Virus record (IMG/VR): IMGVR_UViG_3300035688_000034
Span: 1-34,364 of that record
Direction: 5' to 3' (one strand)
From: a virus
Length of the DNA: 34,364 nt
The position numbers and the translations under genes are program-made. The notes beneath the pieces were generated by a model. The model saw only the letters and a program-made list of their open reading frames with translations, was not told where the DNA came from and searched no databases. Positions 2,970-33,996 of this stretch are shown here, in pieces (position 1 is the stretch's first letter; each line of letters opens with the position of its first letter).

Positions 2970-3214
2970 AGATAGTTACCGTCAAGGATTTAAACGCTCA
3001 GATCATGAAGATGGCCAACCCCGGCAAGTCAGCCACTGCGCCTACGATGCTGAGCATGTTGAAACAAGCTCGCACCATGGGTACCCAGCAGATTGCCAGT
3101 CCCGTGCCTGACTTCTTCGGTCGTTTCATGGAGCTGAAGGCTGGCGGAGAACTGGACAATATACCCGGCATTAAACTGCCTATTCTTAGAACGAAGTGGG
3201 ATATCAAGAGATGA
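2966..3214 (+). CDS. Small hypothetical protein between portal and giant virion protein
   Basis: An 82-residue protein of unknown function. It starts at GTG 2966, whose last two bases are also the first two of the portal TGA stop, and it ends in an ATGA overlap with the next gene. It is therefore tightly coupled on both sides and almost certainly translated. It is basic, has no Cys pair and no membrane segment, and is predicted mostly helical with a short loop at Pro-Gly-Ile-Lys-Leu-Pro. Its place between portal and the 1871-residue protein suggests a minor virion or assembly role; that is inference from context only. Confidence 0.7.
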   Translation: MKIVTVKDLNAQIMKMANPGKSATAPTMLSMLKQARTMGTQQIASPVPDFFGRFMELKAGGELDNIPGIKLPILRTKWDIKR

Positions 3215-6200
3215 CGACTACTTCGCCCGATATCAGGCTGTCAGACGATGTACTGAGGCAACTGCATGAGAACATAGCCGACGTGTTTCAATCGACCGAT
3301 ATCGCCGACGTGTCAACGATCCTCGATACTATCAAGCAGACGATAGAGTACACGCAGAACCCCGCCAAGTATTACGAACCCATCACCATGACGGCGGATC
3401 AGGCGGCTGCATACGGGCTGGAAGTGCCTGAAGGTTGGACTCTGCAGACTCAGATAAACGAATCAGGCGACGTTAGCTTCAGTATGGTTGACCCGGACGG
3501 CTGGCAGATCGACGACAGCGGCAATTACACGGCACCAGACGGCACACAATTCACGCAGGCCGAGCTCGAAGAGACCATGAACGTGCAGGACGTCATCGAT
3601 CGCAATATAGAACCGATTCTGAGCGGAATTAGCGAAGTTATAGGCGCTGCCGATTGGCCTGCTGAGATGCGGGCTGCCGATGTGACAGGGGAAACAATAC
3701 TGAGCTGGGCGCTTCAGTCACCGGAGAACAGCCAGGCGTTCATGCAGGGACTCTGGAATGTGGGAGCAAGAGGCTTTAATGTAAAGACAGGCAAAGAGAA
3801 TATCCCCGATGCAGATGCACAGCAACTGATAGATGATTCTTTCACTGCTCTTCAGTACCTCGGTTACACAGACGAAGACTTGCAGCAGATGTTCCCCGCC
3901 TACGCTACTCAGATATCCGAGGAAAAGCGGGCTCAACTCGGCCTCGGCGGGAAGATTCAAGACTGGCTATGGCAAAACATCGTCTGCCGTGTTGGTAGGG
4001 GAATTGAAAGTGTTATCAATTTTATAACTGCTTCGGGAGAGCAAAGAGTAGCGGAACTCGTCGCTAAATTCGGCGGTAGCGAACAAGACAGAGTATATAT
4101 TGAGAACATAAATAGGCTCTATGATATGTACGGCTGGACGTCATGCTTCACCGACGAAGCTCAGCAGGTTTACGCAAATTGGCACGCTCCGGGCGGCGGC
4201 TGGGGGAAGTTTGCTATATCTCTTGTCAACCCTATCTGGCTTCTCTCTGGCACAGCTGTATTTAAGGGCGCCGAACGCGTCGTTGCGCTGAGCGAGGTAT
4301 TTTCCAAAGTCCCGGCATTGACCGAGATCACACAGACGACGGCCAGGCTTGTGCAGTTCGTCGAAGCGGCTCCGGGTAGAGTTATAGGCTTACCATTCAA
4401 AGGAGCTGGCGCCGCTTCCCGATGGTTCTCTGGTGTTAGTATCAAGGGCAATTTGGCGATAGCAGGAGCTGAGCGCGCAGCAGGCGAGGCTTTTGCCAGG
4501 GATATCTCAGATTTGGCCATTCGTCCCGCTGTGCAGGATTGGGCAAGGACGGTTATTCCAGAGCCGAAGAATGTACTTGTAAGATTGCCAACCTATGACG
4601 AGCTGGCTCCGCAAATGTTTGCCGAGTCACCCGCTCGAAGGTTTGCCTTGACAGCTATAAAGACTCCGGGCGTAGGGCGATTGATAGAGAAGGCTTACAG
4701 GTTCACCCCGAACGCCAAGCTGATTGCTGGCACTACTGCGGCCTGGTCGAAAGTATCAGGAGAGATAGGGAAGATTTCTCTATATACTCAGACACTCTAC
4801 GGCATGGGGAAGGGCACGGCCGGTCAGGCAGTAAGTATTTTGAAGGCTATATCGGGAAAGTCTAGCCCAATAAAGTTTTGGGGGTTGGATAAATACGGTA
4901 TCAGTAAGACAATCAGGACGGCGGCAGGTCATGCGGGAGAAGCGCGAACAATCTATCGTATCTTAGAGAATCCAACAGCCTATAAACTTTCGCCAGAGCA
5001 GATCAAATATGCCTCTGTCATATACTCGACCATCGATGATATATATAAAATGCAACTCAGAGAAGGCATAGTGGTTCAAAAAACAGCAGTTGCCGACCTT
5101 GAACACTATGTCCACCGCGTTGTTAAGAACGTGAACAGGAACGCCGGCCTTGGTATGAAAGGCAGGATCGGGCGACTTCCGACTTTCGTCAAGCATCGTA
5201 CTGTCGGCGAAGTGACCGAGGAAGTAGCTAAGAAAATTGCATACACACATAACCCCGAAGTTATTGTAGAGAGCTACGTCCAGCAGGGCATCAAGAGGAT
5301 AGCCGATAAGCGCATGGCGGAGCTGGTGCAGAAGCTTCCCGACGTCAGGGTATCGCTCGAAAACCCCGTATATAAAGACTTCAAGTCAGCGCTCGGCTCG
5401 GCGTCACGCGGCGCCACAATTAAGCCGGAGATCATTAACAGGATTGAGCAGGAGTTCCCCGACCTGGGCAGGCGCTTCCGTGCCGCTACGAGGATGGCCA
5501 CCGTTGAGGATGAGGCCGTCAGGGGATATCTGCAAAAGAGTTGGGACCAGATAAAGGACTTGCAACAGCGCCTTGCAGCGAAGGAAGCCGCACCCGCTAC
5601 GGAAGCCAAGGCCGCAGGCGAAGTTGCGGCACCATCGATAGAGACCTTCACCAAGACTATGGAGGCTATAGCCTACGACGACCGCCTGTTATTCCTCGAT
5701 ACCTTTGAGGCAAGAATGGTTGAGATAGACCGCATGGCGGGCGAGATGAGCCAAGAGATAGAGGGCATGAAGAACTTCTTGGAGCAGGATGTTGTCGCCT
5801 CATATCGCGGCACAATGGGCAAGAGGACAACGAGCCTGTTATCGCTTCTTGATAAGTCGGGCAAGTTCCCCGAGACACTCACCCCCAAGCAGGCCGAATT
5901 ACTACTCATGGGCAGGGAGTTAAAACCCAACGTGCTTACGGCTGAAGGCCGGGTCCGCTGGGAGTATGTCATGGACGAGCTGGCCGACCACTTCCACATG
6001 ACGGAGCGGGAATTCATAAATCACCTTGAGAACCTGAAGGCGACAAGACTGAGGATAACTGACTTGAAAGGGCTTATAGACGACGCTGTAGTCCGCAAGA
6101 CAGAGCTTCAGGGTATGAGGGATGCGGTGAACGCGGTCAACCGCAGGGCCGCGAATCTGCCTACATCGGAAGAAGGCCGCCCGATATGGGCAACCGAGAA

Positions 6201-8826
6201 GCCGCTGCCGACTGAGGAAGAGTTGCTGAGGCCGCCAGTGGGATCAGTAGAATACAAGCCTGTGTCGTCCATCCTCGACGAGATACCGCCCGTTGTGCGC
6301 ACGTCCGCCGAGCGCAAGGCAGAACTTGAAGCTATCCGGGCAAACCTCGAAAAGATGACTCATCCTACGGCGAAGCTCGGCGAGCAGCAGTTATTTCATC
6401 CCGCATTCCGAGGCTGGGCTTTACCACCGGAGATTGCACGGACAGTCAACTACTTCTGGGACTCACGGAGCAATTCATTCTTGGAGTTCACAGCAAAAGT
6501 AGCAGGACTGCTGAGAACTAAGGCCGCTATGGACTTCTCGGCAATGATGATACAAGCCTTGCCTGCAATGGGCGCTACAATGGCGACGCTCAATCCCAAG
6601 TACATGACTACCTGGCTTAAAGGCTTGGGCGAAGGGTTGGAAGTATGGCTGAAGCCTGAAGTATACGCGAAGTGGGCGGCAGAGCATAATGTAGCTATTC
6701 AACAGCGCATATCTTTTGGCGGCACGCAGATGTCTTTCGATTGGTTTGAGGCTACCCCGTGGCTTCTTAGTTGGTCAGAACATGTACCTGGTGCATCGTG
6801 GGTAGTCAGACAGACTTATGGACGCTTTGAGGCGCAGTTCAGCTTCAGCCTTGACTACATGCGACAGACGACATGGGAGGCGCTATCACCTGCCGCAATA
6901 AAGAGCGGCAACGCTTTCAAACTGGCTGAGATGTGCGACCACATGATAGGTGTAACATCACGAGAGATCGCCGGTGTCCCCGCATGGTTCAGAGATATCG
7001 AGTCATCCTTTGGATGGTTTGCTCCTAACTACACCCATGGTTGCCTGCAATTAGTCGGCGATATCTTCAGGGGCAAGTATATGGCTGGTCAGGCAGTGAA
7101 GGCTCTAGCCGGCATGATGGGGGCCTGCACTTTAGTTTATTATACGTATTGCAAGGCGACCGGACAGGAACCTCAGCTTAACCCATTCGCAAGAGGATTC
7201 ATGACGTCTACCGTTGATGGTTTCGATGTAAGACTAGGCGGGTTCTGGAATGGACAGGCCAGGCTCCTAATTGACATCTGGAATTCAGCTCACGATAACT
7301 GGGATACGCCCATAGATTTCTTCTGGATCACGAAGGAGGGAGCGTTAAACAGGGAGAATCCTTTCCTTATGTGGTGGTACAAACGCAGCTCGGCCTTAAC
7401 ACATTTCGGCATCGATACGATGTGGCAGCACCGGGACTACAACCAGCACGAGTTAGACGATCCACTCAGTTATGCCAAGTACATGCTTGAATGTATAACC
7501 CCGATAGCGACGGATGCGATGTTGCAAAATGTTCTGTGGGGAGACAAGCAGGCAGGCTGGAAAATCTTCCTTGCTGAGCTTTTTGGTCTAAATACATATC
7601 CCTCATCTCTGTATAAAGCACTTGCCGATCAGGCGGCTATTTATATCAATCAGATGCAACCGAGTGAGATCGAGCCTGACCAGATGCAGAAGTGGCAGAA
7701 GGGCGAGCTCACATGGGACGATTTAAACAAGGCGCAACAAGCGACGCTCAAACTGCGCTATCCAGAGTTGAACGACATGGAGAACGCGGCGGATGAGGCT
7801 CAAGACCAGTGGGCTACTCCGTTAAGGCGGGACTATTGGAACGCAATCGACAACATTCGTACGTACAAGATAGATACAGGTAATGCCCTTGTCGATGATC
7901 TGATGTCCGGCGTGGACTCTGCGGGGAATGCCTTCAACACCAAGAGTTTCCGCAATGCAGTCTCCGACATGAATACGGCTTATGGCATCATGTACGGCGG
8001 CGTAAATAATGACGAGCGGTTCGCCGAAATCATTGCGGGTTGGGACAGACAGAAAGACCCGAAGGACGCCGAGACAGTCGACGCGGCTTACGACGAATAC
8101 TTTGATACCGTGGTCGGCGGGGACTATGACGGCCCCGACGATATATTCAACTTCAATGCCTACGACAAGGCCATAGCAGACTTCAAGACCAAGTGGGGTA
8201 TCGATATCTACAACCAGATATTGACCATCCTCGAATCAAACAAAATGGGCGAGAACCCGGTTGTTGTGCGGCTTTGGAAGGATAGGCAGACTCTGGCGGC
8301 TTCGGGCTATTGGGATATGCCAGTAGACACGACCGAGCAGAGGGCTGCGCGCAACGACTTCCTGAAGGCCAATCCCACTATTGATGCGACCCTGTTCTTT
8401 TGGGGATACCGCAGCGATCTTGAGACGGTCGCCGCCTATAACAACGTAGTGCAGATGTGCCAGGATACGGGTATTCCTTATACGGCAGTAGGCGGGACCG
8501 GCAAGTTGCCACCGACAAGCGTTGCCCCAGATTGGCTTTCTTATAAAGAGCAGGAGCTCACCGGCTGGGATCGCCAGAACTATTTGAGAGATCACCAGAC
8601 GCTGTACGAGTGGGGCATGGCTAACCTCGGATGGGACGCAATTGACTTCTCTACAGTGCCGAATCCTGAGATGAAGAGGATGCTGGATGAATACGACGCA
8701 GCAGCGGTGGGGGATGCAAGATTGAGATTGCGCTGTATGAATCAAGAACTCGATAACTGGATGGTCAACATTGAAGGATACTCGGCAGCTTATGGCACCG
8801 ACAGATGCACGAAGTTAGGGTACTAA
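3211..8826 (+). CDS. Giant virion-associated protein (1871 aa), likely internal/ejection protein
   Basis: This is the largest gene in the genome. I prefer ATG 3211 (ATGA overlap with the previous stop) over an upstream in-frame GTG at 3196. The N-terminal 150 residues are acidic. Hydrophobic segments lie near residues 332-350, 1095-1125 and 1295-1310. A long coiled-coil, Lys/Glu-rich region spans roughly 680-1060. From about 1080 to 1420 it resembles the membrane-active C-terminal domain (LPD38-like) of very large phage polyvalent proteins: a WFAPNYTHG segment, a hydrophobic helix, then a beta segment around DGFDVRLGG. The last 450 residues are Trp/Asp/Tyr-rich and helical. I see no lysozyme, transglycosylase or MuF ADP-ribosyltransferase signature. 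It sits between portal and scaffold, where no tape measure belongs, so I infer a protein packaged in the head and ejected with DNA. The function is unproven. Confidence 0.75.
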   Translation: MTTTSPDIRLSDDVLRQLHENIADVFQSTDIADVSTILDTIKQTIEYTQNPAKYYEPITMTADQAAAYGLEVPEGWTLQTQINESGDVSFSMVDPDGWQIDDSGNYTAPDGTQFTQAELEETMNVQDVIDRNIEPILSGISEVIGAADWPAEMRAADVTGETILSWALQSPENSQAFMQGLWNVGARGFNVKTGKENIPDADAQQLIDDSFTALQYLGYTDEDLQQMFPAYATQISEEKRAQLGLGGKIQDWLWQNIVCRVGRGIESVINFITASGEQRVAELVAKFGGSEQDRVYIENINRLYDMYGWTSCFTDEAQQVYANWHAPGGGWGKFAISLVNPIWLLSGTAVFKGAERVVALSEVFSKVPALTEITQTTARLVQFVEAAPGRVIGLPFKGAGAASRWFSGVSIKGNLAIAGAERAAGEAFARDISDLAIRPAVQDWARTVIPEPKNVLVRLPTYDELAPQMFAESPARRFALTAIKTPGVGRLIEKAYRFTPNAKLIAGTTAAWSKVSGEIGKISLYTQTLYGMGKGTAGQAVSILKAISGKSSPIKFWGLDKYGISKTIRTAAGHAGEARTIYRILENPTAYKLSPEQIKYASVIYSTIDDIYKMQLREGIVVQKTAVADLEHYVHRVVKNVNRNAGLGMKGRIGRLPTFVKHRTVGEVTEEVAKKIAYTHNPEVIVESYVQQGIKRIADKRMAELVQKLPDVRVSLENPVYKDFKSALGSASRGATIKPEIINRIEQEFPDLGRRFRAATRMATVEDEAVRGYLQKSWDQIKDLQQRLAAKEAAPATEAKAAGEVAAPSIETFTKTMEAIAYDDRLLFLDTFEARMVEIDRMAGEMSQEIEGMKNFLEQDVVASYRGTMGKRTTSLLSLLDKSGKFPETLTPKQAELLLMGRELKPNVLTAEGRVRWEYVMDELADHFHMTEREFINHLENLKATRLRITDLKGLIDDAVVRKTELQGMRDAVNAVNRRAANLPTSEEGRPIWATEKPLPTEEELLRPPVGSVEYKPVSSILDEIPPVVRTSAERKAELEAIRANLEKMTHPTAKLGEQQLFHPAFRGWALPPEIARTVNYFWDSRSNSFLEFTAKVAGLLRTKAAMDFSAMMIQALPAMGATMATLNPKYMTTWLKGLGEGLEVWLKPEVYAKWAAEHNVAIQQRISFGGTQMSFDWFEATPWLLSWSEHVPGASWVVRQTYGRFEAQFSFSLDYMRQTTWEALSPAAIKSGNAFKLAEMCDHMIGVTSREIAGVPAWFRDIESSFGWFAPNYTHGCLQLVGDIFRGKYMAGQAVKALAGMMGACTLVYYTYCKATGQEPQLNPFARGFMTSTVDGFDVRLGGFWNGQARLLIDIWNSAHDNWDTPIDFFWITKEGALNRENPFLMWWYKRSSALTHFGIDTMWQHRDYNQHELDDPLSYAKYMLECITPIATDAMLQNVLWGDKQAGWKIFLAELFGLNTYPSSLYKALADQAAIYINQMQPSEIEPDQMQKWQKGELTWDDLNKAQQATLKLRYPELNDMENAADEAQDQWATPLRRDYWNAIDNIRTYKIDTGNALVDDLMSGVDSAGNAFNTKSFRNAVSDMNTAYGIMYGGVNNDERFAEIIAGWDRQKDPKDAETVDAAYDEYFDTVVGGDYDGPDDIFNFNAYDKAIADFKTKWGIDIYNQILTILESNKMGENPVVVRLWKDRQTLAASGYWDMPVDTTEQRAARNDFLKANPTIDATLFFWGYRSDLETVAAYNNVVQMCQDTGIPYTAVGGTGKLPPTSVAPDWLSYKEQELTGWDRQNYLRDHQTLYEWGMANLGWDAIDFSTVPNPEMKRMLDEYDAAAVGDARLRLRCMNQELDNWMVNIEGYSAAYGTDRCTKLGY

Positions 8827-8827
8827 T

Positions 8828-9025
8828 CTACCTTTCAAACCCTTCGCAGTTAAGACATTCGCAATAATCTATTCCATCGACAGTATGTATTTCCGTTTCA
8901 CAGGTAAAAGGGCAGTTGCAGCCTGAATCCTGTTTTGGTTCACAACCTTGAGTAGCCAAAAGAAGAAAATAGCCAATCCAAAATATAAGGGCTGCACCTA
9001 CTATAAATTTTAATATCTTCTTCAC
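8828..9025 (-). CDS. Antisense small membrane-anchored Cys-rich protein (moron candidate)
   Basis: A 65-residue protein encoded against the late operon, ending one base from the convergent stop of the giant virion protein. It begins MKKILKFIVG, followed by a hydrophobic stretch to residue 25 and then a Cys at 28. The context before that Cys (ATQGC) is a poor lipobox because of the Gln, so an uncleaved N-terminal anchor is as likely as a lipoprotein. The rest carries seven more Cys in CxC, CxxxC and CxCxxC spacing, suggesting disulfides outside the cell or a metal site. The GTG start lies six bases after an extended -10 element, implying a leaderless mRNA. Isolated, self-promoted and antisense, it fits a lysogenic-conversion or superinfection-exclusion gene; no family is recognised. 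Confidence 0.65.
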   Translation of the reverse strand: MKKILKFIVGAALIFWIGYFLLLATQGCEPKQDSGCNCPFTCETEIHTVDGIDYCECLNCEGFER

Positions 9026-28897: not shown

Positions 28898-29139
28898 CAT
28901 TAGAAGAGAAGATAGCAGAGATAATAAGTGACGCTTTTAGGCATGAAGTTTTACCGTGCTTTTGCTGCAAGGAAGATACAAATTGTCAAAGAACCTTAGA
29001 GAAGTGCATTAATTTTAGGCTTCAAGCCCTCATCGCCGCAGACAGGGCAGGGCTGGTGGAGGCATTAACTAAGATAAGCGCAACTTCAAATGACATAAAT
29101 GCAAGAATAATAGCCGATAAAGTTCTGGAGGTGAAGTAA
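28894..29139 (+). CDS. Hypothetical early protein with Cys cluster
   Basis: An 81-residue protein; ATG 28894 has AAAAAGGAGG. A Cys cluster at residues 22-38 (CFCC, then CQRTLEKC) may bind a metal or an iron-sulfur centre; the rest is helical and Ala/Asp-rich. Its TAA overlaps the next ATG. No family recognised. Confidence 0.55.
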   Translation: MTLEEKIAEIISDAFRHEVLPCFCCKEDTNCQRTLEKCINFRLQALIAADRAGLVEALTKISATSNDINARIIADKVLEVK

Positions 29140-29333
29140 TGGCTAAATGTGATATTACTGCATACTTTAATTATATACAGAAAGAACACCCGAACTTCTG
29201 TCCCGTGTGTGGTATGCAAAGTGGAAGTACATCAGTTGTATGTTTGCACCACTTCCCATTAGTTATCTCATATAAAAATAGAGAGCAATGTTATACAAAT
29301 GGATTTCCTTATGAGGAGGTACAGAATGGATAA
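29139..29333 (+). CDS. Cys/His mini-protein
   Basis: A 64-residue protein starting within the previous stop (TAATG). CPVC (residues 21-24), then Cys-35 with His-37 and His-38 suggest a zinc site. Overlaps the next gene by 8 bases. Unknown function. Confidence 0.5.
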   Translation: MAKCDITAYFNYIQKEHPNFCPVCGMQSGSTSVVCLHHFPLVISYKNREQCYTNGFPYEEVQNG

Positions 29334-29640
29334 GAAGATGGGTACTTGCAGGTTCCCGAAATGTAAGAGGTATAAGGACTGTGATATTTATAGAGATTGT
29401 CCTGGTTATGTGCCTCCTAAGCCCTCCTTATCCCCTGCAAAGGATGTTAGGGGAAAGGTAGCACCCGAAGATAGCTCACTATGGAAATGTAATTGGCTTA
29501 ATTGTTTGCATGGATGTGGCCTAGCGGGCAATGGTAGCTGTTCGGCAGACGGAGAATGGAATAATCCTAAATGCCCACAATTTAGGCGGTATGAATGCCC
29601 TGAGTGTATGGCAGAGCTAAAGAAGCAGTTGGAGGGGTAG
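29326..29640 (+). CDS. Cys-rich hypothetical protein
   Basis: A 104-residue protein from ATG 29326 (GAGGAGGT ahead). It holds 14 Cys: CRFPKC, CDIYRDC, CNWLNC, CGLAGNGSC, and CPECMAELKK at the end, suggestive of several metal sites. An N-terminal arrangement CxxxxCxxxxxC resembles zinc-knot proteins. Unknown function. Confidence 0.55.
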   Translation: MDKKMGTCRFPKCKRYKDCDIYRDCPGYVPPKPSLSPAKDVRGKVAPEDSSLWKCNWLNCLHGCGLAGNGSCSADGEWNNPKCPQFRRYECPECMAELKKQLEG

Positions 29641-29649
29641 GAGGGAGCG

Positions 29650-30132
29650 ATGGCTGATATAGAGTCATACGCAGACAGGCAGCGAATCAAGCGTGTAATC
29701 ATCGATGCCTACACGCCGGCGATGCGCGACAGGTTCCCGGAGCGATTCTCTGAGGTATCATCTAGTGGCCATGGCGAGTGGGAGCTCCCCCGCGGCCTGT
29801 TGATCCTTCACATTCAAGTAACACTGCTGCGAGTCCGGGATCAGTACGCATATCACTACCTATTCCGCCCACTGTACGAGCAGGGCCTGTCGATGGAAGA
29901 AGTAGCCCGGCGGCAGCGCACGAACCACAAGAACATCACGCGCCGCATTGACCGGATGCTGGACAACGCCATCGAACGCATGACAAAGCGCACGGCTCAG
30001 ATGATACTCAGTGTGTACTGGCAGATGCACGAGGGCGAGCAAATGATATATGACGCGCTCGATGCAGCCGGTCTCCCCACTGAGATCGAGAAGGGCGTCG
30101 TGAAATTGTGGCACGGCAGGGGCAAGCGATAG
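29650..30132 (+). CDS. HTH regulator in the Q position (sigma-70 region 4-like)
   Basis: A 160-residue Arg-rich protein, start ATG 29650 with GGAGGGAG. Residues about 68-108 contain a region-4-like HTH: LYEQGLSMEEVARRQRTNHKNI followed by TRRIDRMLDNAIERM (shown as two halves: LYEQGLSMEEVARRQ and RTNHKNITRR). The remainder is helical. It is the penultimate early gene and lies directly before the late promoter and its terminator cluster, where lambdoid phages have the Q antiterminator. I infer a late activator or antiterminator; no direct family match to Q is claimed. Confidence 0.68.
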   Translation: MADIESYADRQRIKRVIIDAYTPAMRDRFPERFSEVSSSGHGEWELPRGLLILHIQVTLLRVRDQYAYHYLFRPLYEQGLSMEEVARRQRTNHKNITRRIDRMLDNAIERMTKRTAQMILSVYWQMHEGEQMIYDALDAAGLPTEIEKGVVKLWHGRGKR

Positions 30133-30134
30133 GG

Positions 30135-30140
30135 TATAAT
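30135..30140 (+). promoter_or_regulatory. Consensus -10 without clear -35
   Basis: TATAAT three bases after the regulator stop region. No -35 lies at 16-18 bases. It could be a regulated promoter for the downstream small gene or chance. Confidence 0.3.
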
Positions 30141-30155
30141 TACAAGAGGAGGAAG

Positions 30156-30176
30156 ATGAATAGTTCGGCGCTATGA
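30156..30176 (+). other. Six-codon leader ORF
   Basis: AAGAGGAGG precedes ATG 30156, which encodes only MNSSAL before a TGA overlapping the next ATG at 30173. The good ribosome site belongs to this mini-frame, so the zinc-ribbon gene is probably translated by coupling. Confidence 0.45.
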
Positions 30177-30370
30177 GCAAAGAGAGTGATATCTTTGTTG
30201 TCTGCAAGCTCTGTGGCATCAGAATCGGCGAGAAATACACCGAGAAAGTATCCTATCCCTCGAAAGACGGCGTTATTTGCGGCAACTGCAAGGACAATCC
30301 GCCCTTCCGAGGCGATGTCCGATATCGATACTGGGGTAAAGTCATGAAGAACAGGCTCGGCATGCCATAA
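30173..30370 (+). CDS. Zinc-ribbon mini-protein
   Basis: A 65-residue protein with CKLC (residues 11-14) and CGNC (residues 36-39), a four-Cys ribbon, then a basic aromatic C-terminus. It follows the Q-position regulator and precedes the late promoter. Zinc ribbons of this size can contact RNA polymerase or nucleic acid, so it may assist late control, but only its place suggests that. Confidence 0.6.
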   Translation: MSKESDIFVVCKLCGIRIGEKYTEKVSYPSKDGVICGNCKDNPPFRGDVRYRYWGKVMKNRLGMP

Positions 30371-30387
30371 CTCGGCTAGCTAACCCC

Positions 30388-30416
30388 TTGACAAATCCCG
30401 TTGCGGGCTTTAAAAT
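30388..30416 (+). promoter_or_regulatory. Late promoter (PR'-like) with palindrome in spacer
   Basis: TTGACA (30388-30393), exactly 17 bases, TAAAAT (30411-30416). The spacer contains CCCGTTGCGGG (30397-30407), a perfect palindrome around TTG. The expected start is near 30423. A sequence resembling a -10 box (TATTGT, 30431-30436) lies about 10 bases into the transcript, where a sigma-dependent pause could occur. Confidence 0.85.
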
Positions 30417-30435
30417 ACTGTAATCTCAAGTATTG

Positions 30436-30465
30436 TCCCCGGCGTAGGCTGGGGATTTTTATTTT
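30436..30465 (+). terminator. Promoter-proximal terminator (tR'-like)
   Basis: TCCCC (30436-30440) pairs with GGGGA (30451-30455), 10-base loop, followed by TTTTTATTTT. It starts only about 13 bases after the predicted transcript start. Confidence 0.68.
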
Positions 30466-30489
30466 CCCCCAAGAATGGGGGACACCCCC
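30466..30489 (+). other. Mutually exclusive hairpins in the late leader
   Basis: CCCCC (30466-30470), GGGGG (30477-30481) and CCCCC (30485-30489): the middle G run can pair with either C run, so two alternative stems are possible, as in RNA switches or attenuators. Confidence 0.5.
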
Positions 30490-30517
30490 AGTCCTTCCGC
30501 GGAAGGACTCTTTTATT
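30490..30517 (+). terminator. Second terminator in the late leader
   Basis: A perfect palindrome, AGTCCTTCCG (30490-30499) with CGGAAGGACT (30500-30509), followed by CTTTTATT. As RNA an 8-bp stem with CGCG loop and a T-rich tail. Confidence 0.7.
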
Positions 30518-30675
30518 AGACAAACTGCTGGACATCCTCAAAACATTGTTACGTTCAAGGTCAAGCTAGAAATCTCAGACATTATGCTGGACATTGCAGT
30601 AATCTTTACTGTGATTGCAGTATTTGTTACATCTCCCAATGAGTATGTACTCCAAATAATGAGTGTGGAGCGTGT
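30518..30675. other. AT-rich stretch before metallophosphoesterase
   Basis: It shows a repeated CTGGACAT, a dyad CAGTAA-TCT-TTACTG and a possible 33-residue hydrophobic peptide frame (30584-30685) lacking a ribosome site. I cannot support a gene here. Confidence 0.35.
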
Positions 30676-31521
30676 ATGCAAGTAATCATTAAGGATGTCG
30701 AGTATAGTAGACCTGATAAGTTTACTATCTACCCGATTGGAGACATCCATTGTGGTGTGGTACATTGTGATGAAGATTTACTTACTAAGCAAGTCAAAGA
30801 GATACAACAAAACCATAATGCCTATTGGCTAGGAATGGGCGATTACGCTGATCTAGTAACACCTTCTGATTTCAAGCGATGGGAAGGCAAGATACTTTCC
30901 CCTTGGATGAAGGGGCAAGAAGACAATATTGGCCCCACACAATTAAGGCATATCAATTCAATCCTCTCTCCTATATGGGGCAAGTGTTTGGGATTAATTG
31001 AAGGCAACCATGACGAGAACATCCGCAGGTATCATCATTACAACTTCATTCACGAACTCTTAATAGAAGCTAATAAGAAATATGAAGTGCCTTATGCTGG
31101 TGTGCAATGTCTCTTGATTCTAAGGTTCAATCGTAAGAACTCCTCAGAGAGCCATGAGTATATCATCCATGCTCGGCATGGCGAGGGAGCCGCAAGAACA
31201 TCTGGCGCTCGTGCACTTGCAGTCTTGCGTCTAGCGGGGACTTTCGTTAATGCACATATCACTTTCATGGGGCATTTACATGGGCAGGAATCACCAGACA
31301 TCCCGCAGAGATTGATATACAGGGCGGGCAAAATCAAGTCGTTTGAGACGATTGCAGTAATGACTGGGGCTTGGCTTAAAGGTTATATGCAGAATGTCCC
31401 ACCATGTTACATTGAGCGTTGGGGATGCACACCTTCGGTTTTAGGATGCCCACATATCACAATCGAACCTGACGATGATGTTATGGAATTAGTTAAGAGT
31501 CGTAGAGTAACCAAGATGTAA
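30676..31521 (+). CDS. Calcineurin-like metallophosphoesterase
   Basis: A 281-residue protein with all five metallophosphoesterase motifs: GDIH (Asp23, His25), GDY (Asp56), GNHDE (Asn111, His112), HARHG (His168 region) and GHLHG (His200, His202). Such enzymes cleave phosphodiesters with two metals; the substrate is not deducible. It is the first gene after the late leader and is AT-rich compared with the head genes, with different codon choice, suggesting separate acquisition. Possible roles include DNA or RNA processing or removal of a nucleotide signal used in host defence; none is proven. Confidence 0.88.
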   Translation: MQVIIKDVEYSRPDKFTIYPIGDIHCGVVHCDEDLLTKQVKEIQQNHNAYWLGMGDYADLVTPSDFKRWEGKILSPWMKGQEDNIGPTQLRHINSILSPIWGKCLGLIEGNHDENIRRYHHYNFIHELLIEANKKYEVPYAGVQCLLILRFNRKNSSESHEYIIHARHGEGAARTSGARALAVLRLAGTFVNAHITFMGHLHGQESPDIPQRLIYRAGKIKSFETIAVMTGAWLKGYMQNVPPCYIERWGCTPSVLGCPHITIEPDDDVMELVKSRRVTKM

Positions 31522-31686
31522 TTATGCTTGCTTGATAGCGGCATATAGCAGTGCTGGTGTAAGAACCTAGCACTCAATCGGGGAGTAAATGAACTCCCCT
31601 CTAAATTTAAGGGGGGCGGGGGCTGGAAGGACTCAGCCCTATGGGACTAAGCACATCTGGCCCCTCTAACCCTATTCGGAGAAGAT
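31522..31686 (+). other. Structured non-coding region
   Basis: No gene. Three hairpins in a row. Stem 1 is AGTGCTGGT (31550-31558) with ACC (31565-31567) and AGCACT (31569-31574), one bulged T. Stem 2 is GGGGAGT (31580-31586) with ACTCCCC (31593-31599). Stem 3 is GGGCT (31620-31624) with AGCCC (31635-31639). Stem 2 may terminate or protect the upstream mRNA; no T run follows. Confidence 0.45.
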
Positions 31687-31869
31687 ATGACTCCAGCTAA
31701 ATGTCTTAAATGCCGTCACTTTATACTTGAATCCCACTATTACATAGATGGGAAAGTACGCCATCCCATGATGAATTGGCGATGTAATAGTGACATAACG
31801 CCTTTCGATTATAAAAATTGCAATAGATATAAGCCAAGAGTAAAGGGAGAAGATGATAAAGCAAATTGA
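31687..31869 (+). CDS. Cys-containing mini-protein
   Basis: A 60-residue protein after CGGAGAAG. CLKC (residues 6-9) with Cys-33 and Cys-45 suggests a zinc site in a pattern often annotated in small phage proteins; the function is unknown. Confidence 0.55.
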   Translation: MTPAKCLKCRHFILESHYYIDGKVRHPMMNWRCNSDITPFDYKNCNRYKPRVKGEDDKAN

Positions 31870-33341: not shown

Positions 33342-33539
33342 ATGAAGCAACTCGTCGACGGTGAACAGGTCCGGGTGCATATCCCCAACGATAAGACAGA
33401 AGGGTTCTACCATCTCGAGTGCTGCCGGTGCGGGCTCAAGCATAATCTCTACGTTGGGCGTATAGGTAAGGACGTGACGCTGGCATTCGTGCGAAGAGCA
33501 GAGGACAAGGAGAAAGCAAAGAGAGTAAAACATGACTAA
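33342..33539 (+). CDS. Small Cys protein before terS
   Basis: A 65-residue protein from ATG 33342 with TAGGCGGTG ahead (an in-frame GTG at 33336 is less likely). HLECCRCGLKH at 25-35 is a Cys/His motif common in small proteins that precede small terminases in phages of uncultured bacteria. It overlaps terS by 8 bases. Function unknown. Confidence 0.6.
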   Translation: MKQLVDGEQVRVHIPNDKTEGFYHLECCRCGLKHNLYVGRIGKDVTLAFVRRAEDKEKAKRVKHD

Positions 33540-33996
33540 GAAGGTAGCCGGAAACGGACAAGAGAAAACTGAAAAGAATCCTATCGGGTCGGGCCCGCCA
33601 CTGAAGCCGCTCGTTTGGGCGGTCATAGCGCGAATGTGCGCTGACCATGCCACCGAGGAAGAGATTTGCCGATGGCTTGGCATCTCTGCTGATTGCCTTT
33701 TAGACCGATGCAAAGGCCGTTGGGGTATGACGTTCAAGAAATACTACAATGAGAACCAGGCCGAAGGTAAGATAAGTCTGCGCCGGCAGATGCACAAAGC
33801 AGCCGAGGGGGTCGATCCTCAAGTCCTGCGAGACAAAGACGGTAATATCGTGTGCGATGGCAAGGGGCATCCTGTTATTGTTCCCGGGCAAGCTCCTAAT
33901 GTAGCGGCTCAGATATTCTTGGCCAAGAACGAGCTTGGATATTCAGACAAGCTCTTCCAAGCCGGAGAGATAACTCTAAGGGTGGTTCGTGAGTAA
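33532..33996 (+). CDS. terS: Terminase small subunit
   Basis: A 154-residue protein. Residues 40-62 are the DNA-binding HTH (ATEEEICRWLGISADCLLDR), the middle is helical for oligomerisation, and the end has the typical AQIFLAKNELGYSDK motif before a short beta tail. It recognises the packaging site and directs TerL. Its stop lies inside the first codons of terL (GTG start at 33989 overlaps by 8 bases). No cos or pac site can be assigned from sequence alone. Confidence 0.85.
   Translation: MTKKVAGNGQEKTEKNPIGSGPPLKPLVWAVIARMCADHATEEEICRWLGISADCLLDRCKGRWGMTFKKYYNENQAEGKISLRRQMHKAAEGVDPQVLRDKDGNIVCDGKGHPVIVPGQAPNVAAQIFLAKNELGYSDKLFQAGEITLRVVRE

Follow-up and report, generated by a model that had tools for sequence, protein, structure and literature searches.

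What is known of Q-type antitermination of late phage transcription comes mainly from proteobacterial systems, namely lambda, 21, 82 and AlpA. In phages of Gram-positive bacteria, late regulators of the ArpU/RinA type are HTH proteins encoded just before the late genes; these are considered to act on initiation and would not explain terminators lying between a promoter and the late genes, as in the locus described here. Lambda Q, which combines a zinc finger with an HTH (PMC9371919), needs a -35-like element besides the Q-binding element and a -10-like pause sequence (Shi et al., PMC6606751), and the core of 21Q (H3-H6) resembles sigma region 4 (PMC6606751, PMC9371919). AlpA is an HTH antiterminator that is loaded between -35 and -10 and bypasses a promoter-proximal intrinsic terminator before lysis genes (PMC9371919). 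The 21Q, lambda Q and 82Q families and AlpA have no common sequence similarity, yet likely share a common mechanism (PMC6606751, PMC9371919), and missing similarity is therefore no argument against a Q mechanism, though it bars membership in a known family.

The DNA analyzed here, referred to as the window, is the whole of IMG/VR record IMGVR_UViG_3300035688_000034 (34,364 bp of virus DNA). From its terminal direct repeat of 220 bp with 2 mismatches, it can be taken as a near-complete genome; the late genes span the two ends, running off one end of the window and resuming at the other. An integrase and a LexA/CI-like repressor are encoded on the minus strand, the early operon includes RepO-like and DnaC-like genes, and the window is a near-complete temperate phage. 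At the early-late junction, the last early genes are followed by a promoter and two terminators (T1 and T2), and then by genes for a metallophosphoesterase, a lysin-like and a holin-like protein, terS and terL (Table 1). The placement just before the first late gene, as described in the initial annotation of this locus, was thus confirmed, with early genes on one side and metallophosphoesterase to terL on the other. A search for relatives of this first clear late gene returned none.

Table 1. Coordinates of the junction features and terminase genes in the window
Feature	Position	Strand	Details
160-aa protein, candidate late regulator	29650..30132	+	ORF; HTH/sigma-region-4-like segment at about residues 70-110, by inspection only
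65-aa zinc-ribbon-like protein, last early gene, possible partner	30173..30370	+	ORF
-35 element TTGACA, candidate late promoter	30388..30393	+	11/12 together with -10, spacer 17
Palindrome CCCG-TTG-CGGG in promoter spacer	30397..30407	+	about 9-11% by chance
-10 element TAAAAT, candidate late promoter	30411..30416	+	predicted start near 30423
TATTGT, possible -10-like pause element, about +9	30431..30436	+	chance-level match
Terminator T1	30435..30465	+	hairpin 30435-30456 and U-rich tail; 9 pairs, -16.9 kcal/mol
Middle hairpin (CCCC..GGGG) between T1 and T2	30465..30482	+	predicted fold
Terminator T2	30490..30517	+	hairpin 30490-30509 and U-rich tail; 8 pairs, -11.3 kcal/mol
Metallophosphoesterase / DNA repair exonuclease-like, first clear late gene	30676..31521	+	PHROG 7339, E=1.2e-24
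terS	33532-33996		
terL	from 33989, continuing at 1-1158 past the record end		

Several smaller features surround the junction. An open frame between T2 and the metallophosphoesterase gene (30520-30685) encodes a hydrophobic stretch (MLDIAVIFTVIAVFVTSPNEYVLQIMSVERVCK at its end) and could represent a small membrane protein where relatives have a holin; no clear ribosome-binding site was seen for it. The non-coding gap after the metallophosphoesterase gene (31521-31687) contains several inverted repeats (AGTGCT..AGCACT, GGGGAG..CTCCCC) and gave no Rfam match. Small Cys-rich, zinc-binding-like reading frames lie around the early/late boundary (29139-29333, 29299-29640 and 31687-31869), and a very large reading frame of 1876 aa (3196-8826) is found a little downstream of the gene for a 600-aa protein that follows the terminase.

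The near-consensus promoter of the initial annotation proved to be the best promoter-like site of the region (TTGACA-17-TAAAAT, 30388-30416, 11/12). The two terminators reported close behind it are both strong intrinsic terminators situated between this promoter and the first late gene, with T1 beginning 18 nt and T2 73 nt after the -10. The predicted terminated RNAs of ~44 nt (T1) and ~95 nt (T2) agree with the short leader of 40-95 bases that had been proposed. Under a stricter scan, the + strand of the window yields no more than two promoter-like sites scoring 10/12 or higher, along with just two strong terminators, and one of these promoters is directly upstream of both terminators. The window has a single case of a promoter with a strong terminator within ~60 nt, and not one of 200 dinucleotide shuffles reproduced such a pair. 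No other + strand promoter of at least 9/12 was detected between T2 and the first late gene. Searches for DNA relatives of the region found none, and Rfam returned only sub-threshold noise.

Other elements of the initial annotation fared less well. The spacer palindrome is at chance level, with 4-bp arms present in 9% of window 17-mers, and was not seen in relatives; the proposed -10-like pause motif near +10 (TATTGT at ~+9) is likewise at chance level, an equal match occurring in 19% of 20-mers. Alternative hairpins had also been suggested at the terminators. In the minimum-energy fold of the leader (-42.8), T1, the middle hairpin and T2 are all present, and the best structure lacking T1 lies 13.5 kcal/mol higher; since all three form together, a switch between competing structures is not supported.

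We then turned to the proteins encoded upstream of the promoter. The 160-aa gene ends 255 bp and the 65-aa gene 17 bp before the -35. As annotated, the former is a 160-residue ORF with a plausible region-4-like segment (LYEQGLSMEEVARRQRTNHKNITRRIDRMLDNAIERM) and no evident Q relative: it gave no significant match in Pfam, PHROGs, NCBIfam or PDB sequences, which places it outside the lambda Q, 21Q, 82Q and AlpA families. Against NCBIfam, including the ArpU/RinA models, only a chance MarR-type match was obtained (E=0.059). No relatives of this protein were found in phages, viral contigs or 393 genomes of the Dehalococcoidia class, and none of the 65-aa protein in viral contigs; three weak hits (L043-L045) were considered as relatives of the window proteins and judged to be chance. 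AF2 on the 160-aa protein alone, without homologues, gave a poor model (pLDDT 49).

Because no relatives of either protein were found, we used the terminase to find related phages. The hosts of phages with related terminases are Dehalococcoidia. Prophage-like contigs from Dehalococcoidia MAGs (L029-L031, L034) are among these relatives, and the little-studied bacteria of this class are therefore probably also the host of the window phage. The sequence of the closest phage (L003, 98% TerL identity) stops short of the junction. A scan of all loci identified a promoter followed by a terminator, on the coding strand and a short way upstream of the terminase, in L005, L007, L034 and L038; the only pair on the opposite strand is in L005, elsewhere than the junction. 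L008/L009, also among the TerL relatives, have the same arrangement upstream of late genes. In the relatives, it lies directly after the gene for a sigma-region-4-like regulator and just upstream of holin/terminase genes. The arrangement is thus common to a group of phages and does not represent a one-off solution.

The junctions read in L004 and L006-L009 have a conserved leader, composed of TTGACA, 17-18 bp, a -10, then in most of them TGACAA, a hairpin with varied arms and AAGTCATTTTAG, and in most of them a terminator and a holin gene follow the conserved box. The hairpin arms vary among relatives (GGGCG/CGCCC, GGGCAU/AUGCCC, GGGUGC/GCGCCC), with AAGUCAUUUUAG standing between the hairpin and the terminator. 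A pattern scan for the leader box added L048/L051, L054 and L064, the arrangement in L048/L051 and L064 being recognized by the conserved leader motif; the usual terminator directly after the box is absent from L004, L006 and L054. Only instances with a promoter were counted, since the box also matches unrelated coding sequence in viral contigs, and no instance of AAGTCATTTTAGAGCC was found in Dehalococcoidia-class genomes. The window has neither the hairpin nor the box of its relatives. In L007, L048 and L064, the terminator directly precedes the Shine-Dalgarno sequence and start codon of the first late gene; a further promoter could not fit in between, and late expression must therefore pass the terminator.

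In ten of the relatives' promoters, TTGAC recurs 27-31 bp downstream of the -35. The TTGACA repeat stands at 28 bp in L005, L006, L007, L009, L064 and L079, at 27 bp in L054, and at 30-31 bp in L038, L080 and L081; it is absent from the window promoter. We also approached the junction from the protein side, using nine loci found by regulator profiles (a tenth, L068, was excluded because its phage origin was doubtful). Three promoter-terminator pairs were found in 3,870 bp around the regulator end (L066, L073 and L081), compared to one in 77,336 bp elsewhere, a ~60-fold enrichment. In L069, L079 and L080 a pair fits by eye and misses the strict cut-offs, and L065, L067 and L078 have no pair directly downstream of the regulator gene.

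The late leaders of these phages have further individual features. L081 has two tandem terminators (~2975-3050), as does the window, and L080 a tRNA-like stretch between two terminators (~3283-3352) that was not called by ARAGORN. A tRNA-Met (CAT) gene follows the late promoter in L004 (488-563) and L034 (9127-9202), lying within the late leader or the late operon. The terminators of the diverged loci L034 (~8824-8850) and L066 (1985-2006) have a common loop, GGTGTAACAGCC, and the loop of T1 in the window is similar (GGCGTA-GGCT).

The gene ending at or near the relatives' promoter encodes a protein of ~110-170 aa, in many cases bearing an N-terminal Cys cluster (CxxCxxWxxC). L048, L005, L065 and L067 have the entire C-terminal HTH, whereas it is shorter in others, and its canonical helices are lost from several close relatives (alignment A6). 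The L048 regulator matches Pfam Sigma70_r4_2 at E=8.6e-5, with a bit score short of the curated cut-off, and has a weak match (E=0.0013) to PHROG 79, 'anti-termination protein Q-like'. In an AF2 model built from 15 sequences (pLDDT 80.5), residues 52-124 align with sigma region 4 at a middling Z of ~7; a structure search with this model lists sigma region 4 and no Q protein, a result that excludes nothing, and a PDB sequence search with the regulator profile found nothing. The family profile finds five loci in Dehalococcoidia-class genomes and a sub-profile finds further viral contigs, while the profile gave no new loci across 400 Chloroflexota-phylum genomes.

The 160-aa gene of the window occupies the slot where relatives encode this regulator. 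A relation between the two proteins is undetectable by sequence: comparison with profile A3 (an earlier, 7-row version) gave an hhalign probability of 0.1%, profile A6 does not find the 160-aa protein among the window reading frames, and an HTH-only profile ranks it as second-best window ORF, but with E=0.5. Given its position and HTH character, the 160-aa protein is the most likely candidate for the regulator. The zinc ribbon of the initial annotation can be retained as an ORF with a CxxC...CxxC pattern and a weak Pfam hit to the treble-clef family zf-Tbcl_FmdE (E=1.4e-4, below cut-off), its role as a partner being only suggested. Such a role is plausible because Cys clusters, or in L067 a zinc ribbon, are often part of the regulator itself in relatives, and is weakened by the several other small Cys-rich reading frames in the window genome.

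Judged from its sequence, the window module is of Q type in anatomy. It resembles lambda Q/PR'/tR' in the gene order of regulator, late promoter, terminator, lysis genes and terminase, as well as in a short terminated leader. Lambda PR' (J02459) has a TTGACT 28 bp after the -35, comparable to the TTGAC at 27-31 bp in the relatives, whereas the window lacks this -35-like repeat. The window counterpart of the Q-binding element is only putative, the leader and terminator sequences differ, and the family libraries detected no sequence similarity; the zinc finger and HTH of lambda Q can be set beside the N-terminal Cys cluster in many of the relatives' regulators. The phage 21 system is alike in a sigma-region-4-like HTH domain and a small late regulator encoded beside the late promoter, its PHROG 79 match being weak, confined to L048 and absent for the window protein; 21Q itself binds TGAGCA sites arranged as direct repeats. 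Q-type regulators combine a C-terminal HTH with an N-terminal nozzle at the RNA exit channel, and of these parts the model of the relatives' regulator displays the sigma-region-4-like domain. No homology to AlpA of Pseudomonas aeruginosa was found, and AlpA belongs to a chromosomal lysis programme under AlpR.

Together, these data support the core of the initial proposal, a late promoter with immediate terminators that calls for antitermination, through position, statistics and, above all, recurrence in relatives. Because the late genes lie behind the terminators, no good promoter intervenes and the layout is kept in relatives, read-through of T1 and T2 by the polymerase is very likely needed for late expression. 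From the position, the promoter, the terminators and their recurrence with a sigma-region-4-like regulator gene, we infer that read-through is regulated, that elongation rather than initiation is the target, and which protein is responsible. Host RNA polymerase would start constitutively at ~30423 from the putative promoter and would normally stop at T1 or T2. The early operon would supply the regulator from a gene shortly before the promoter; the 160-aa HTH-like protein is the likeliest candidate, perhaps together with the 65-aa zinc-ribbon protein, and the regulator may load onto RNA polymerase at the promoter DNA or during an early pause. Polymerase loaded in this way would pass both terminators and turn on the lysis, terminase and structural genes. 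We favor, with moderate confidence, late control that works like lambda Q/PR'/tR' with an unrelated or very distant regulator.

Alternatively, the HTH protein could be an activator of initiation at the late promoter, of the ArpU/RinA kind, with terminators that are leaky or serve only to end early transcripts. The HTH segment and position of the 160-aa protein would fit such a function too, and DUF1492 and sigma-like phage proteins appear weakly among the structural neighbors of the relatives' regulator. We nonetheless regard this as unlikely, because a promoter already at 11/12 consensus should need little activation; the downstream terminators would cut the activated transcript, in an order that recurs in relatives, and the 160-aa protein has no NCBIfam match.

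Somewhat less probable still is antitermination based on or loaded by RNA, in which the nascent leader would be the signal, either directly or as a site for a phage protein (like HK022 put RNA, or boxB/nut). The 98-nt window leader folds 4.1 sd better than shuffles, and the relatives have in common the leader hairpin with varied arms and the sequence after it. These latter elements are missing from the window, however, where the first hairpin to form is T1 and no antiterminator is predicted to compete with it. Besides being a possible RNA signal, the relatives' hairpin forms a palindrome in the DNA at the start site and could instead be an operator; the factor may load at promoter DNA or leader RNA.

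A promoter with tight terminators is also the anatomy of a small-RNA gene, and the promoter with T1/T2 could make a stand-alone RNA of ~44-95 nt while the late genes are transcribed otherwise. This is improbable in view of the missing alternative promoter between T2 and the first late gene, and of L007, L048 and L064, in which polymerase has to pass the terminator to reach the first late start codon. That a fortuitous promoter merely adjoins terminators of the early operon is hardly credible, for while pattern matches alone never prove a promoter and a 4-kb stretch holds 10 promoter-like sites against 7.3 expected, no shuffle reproduced the pairing and it recurs, strongly enriched, at the same place in diverged relatives.

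In our best reading, the window is a divergent example of Q-type antitermination, with a putative regulator unlike any known Q. A broader proposal, which we advance tentatively and hold to be rather doubtful, is that Dehalococcoidia (Chloroflexota) phages possess an undescribed family of late antiterminators, sigma-region-4-like and often with a Cys cluster, that are loaded where a promoter of the lambda PR' type combines a tandem -35-like repeat with a conserved hairpin in the leader. The corresponding slot in the window would then hold a further, unrelated regulator, so that within a single phage group different proteins would have taken over Q-type control on more than one occasion. In the literature searched, we found no description of such a late-control module in Dehalococcoidia/Chloroflexota phages. 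The sets of regulator, promoter and terminator collected here are at hand for in vitro work, the better anchored ones being those of L009 (regulator 8122-8631, promoter 8600) and L066 (regulator 1489-1896, promoter 1924). Q-type anatomy in Chloroflexota phages would include, in the relatives, the lambda-like tandem -35, and, if the proposal is true, promoter-proximal termination combined with a loadable sigma-region-4-like factor would be a widespread, possibly convergent, means of timing phage lysis.
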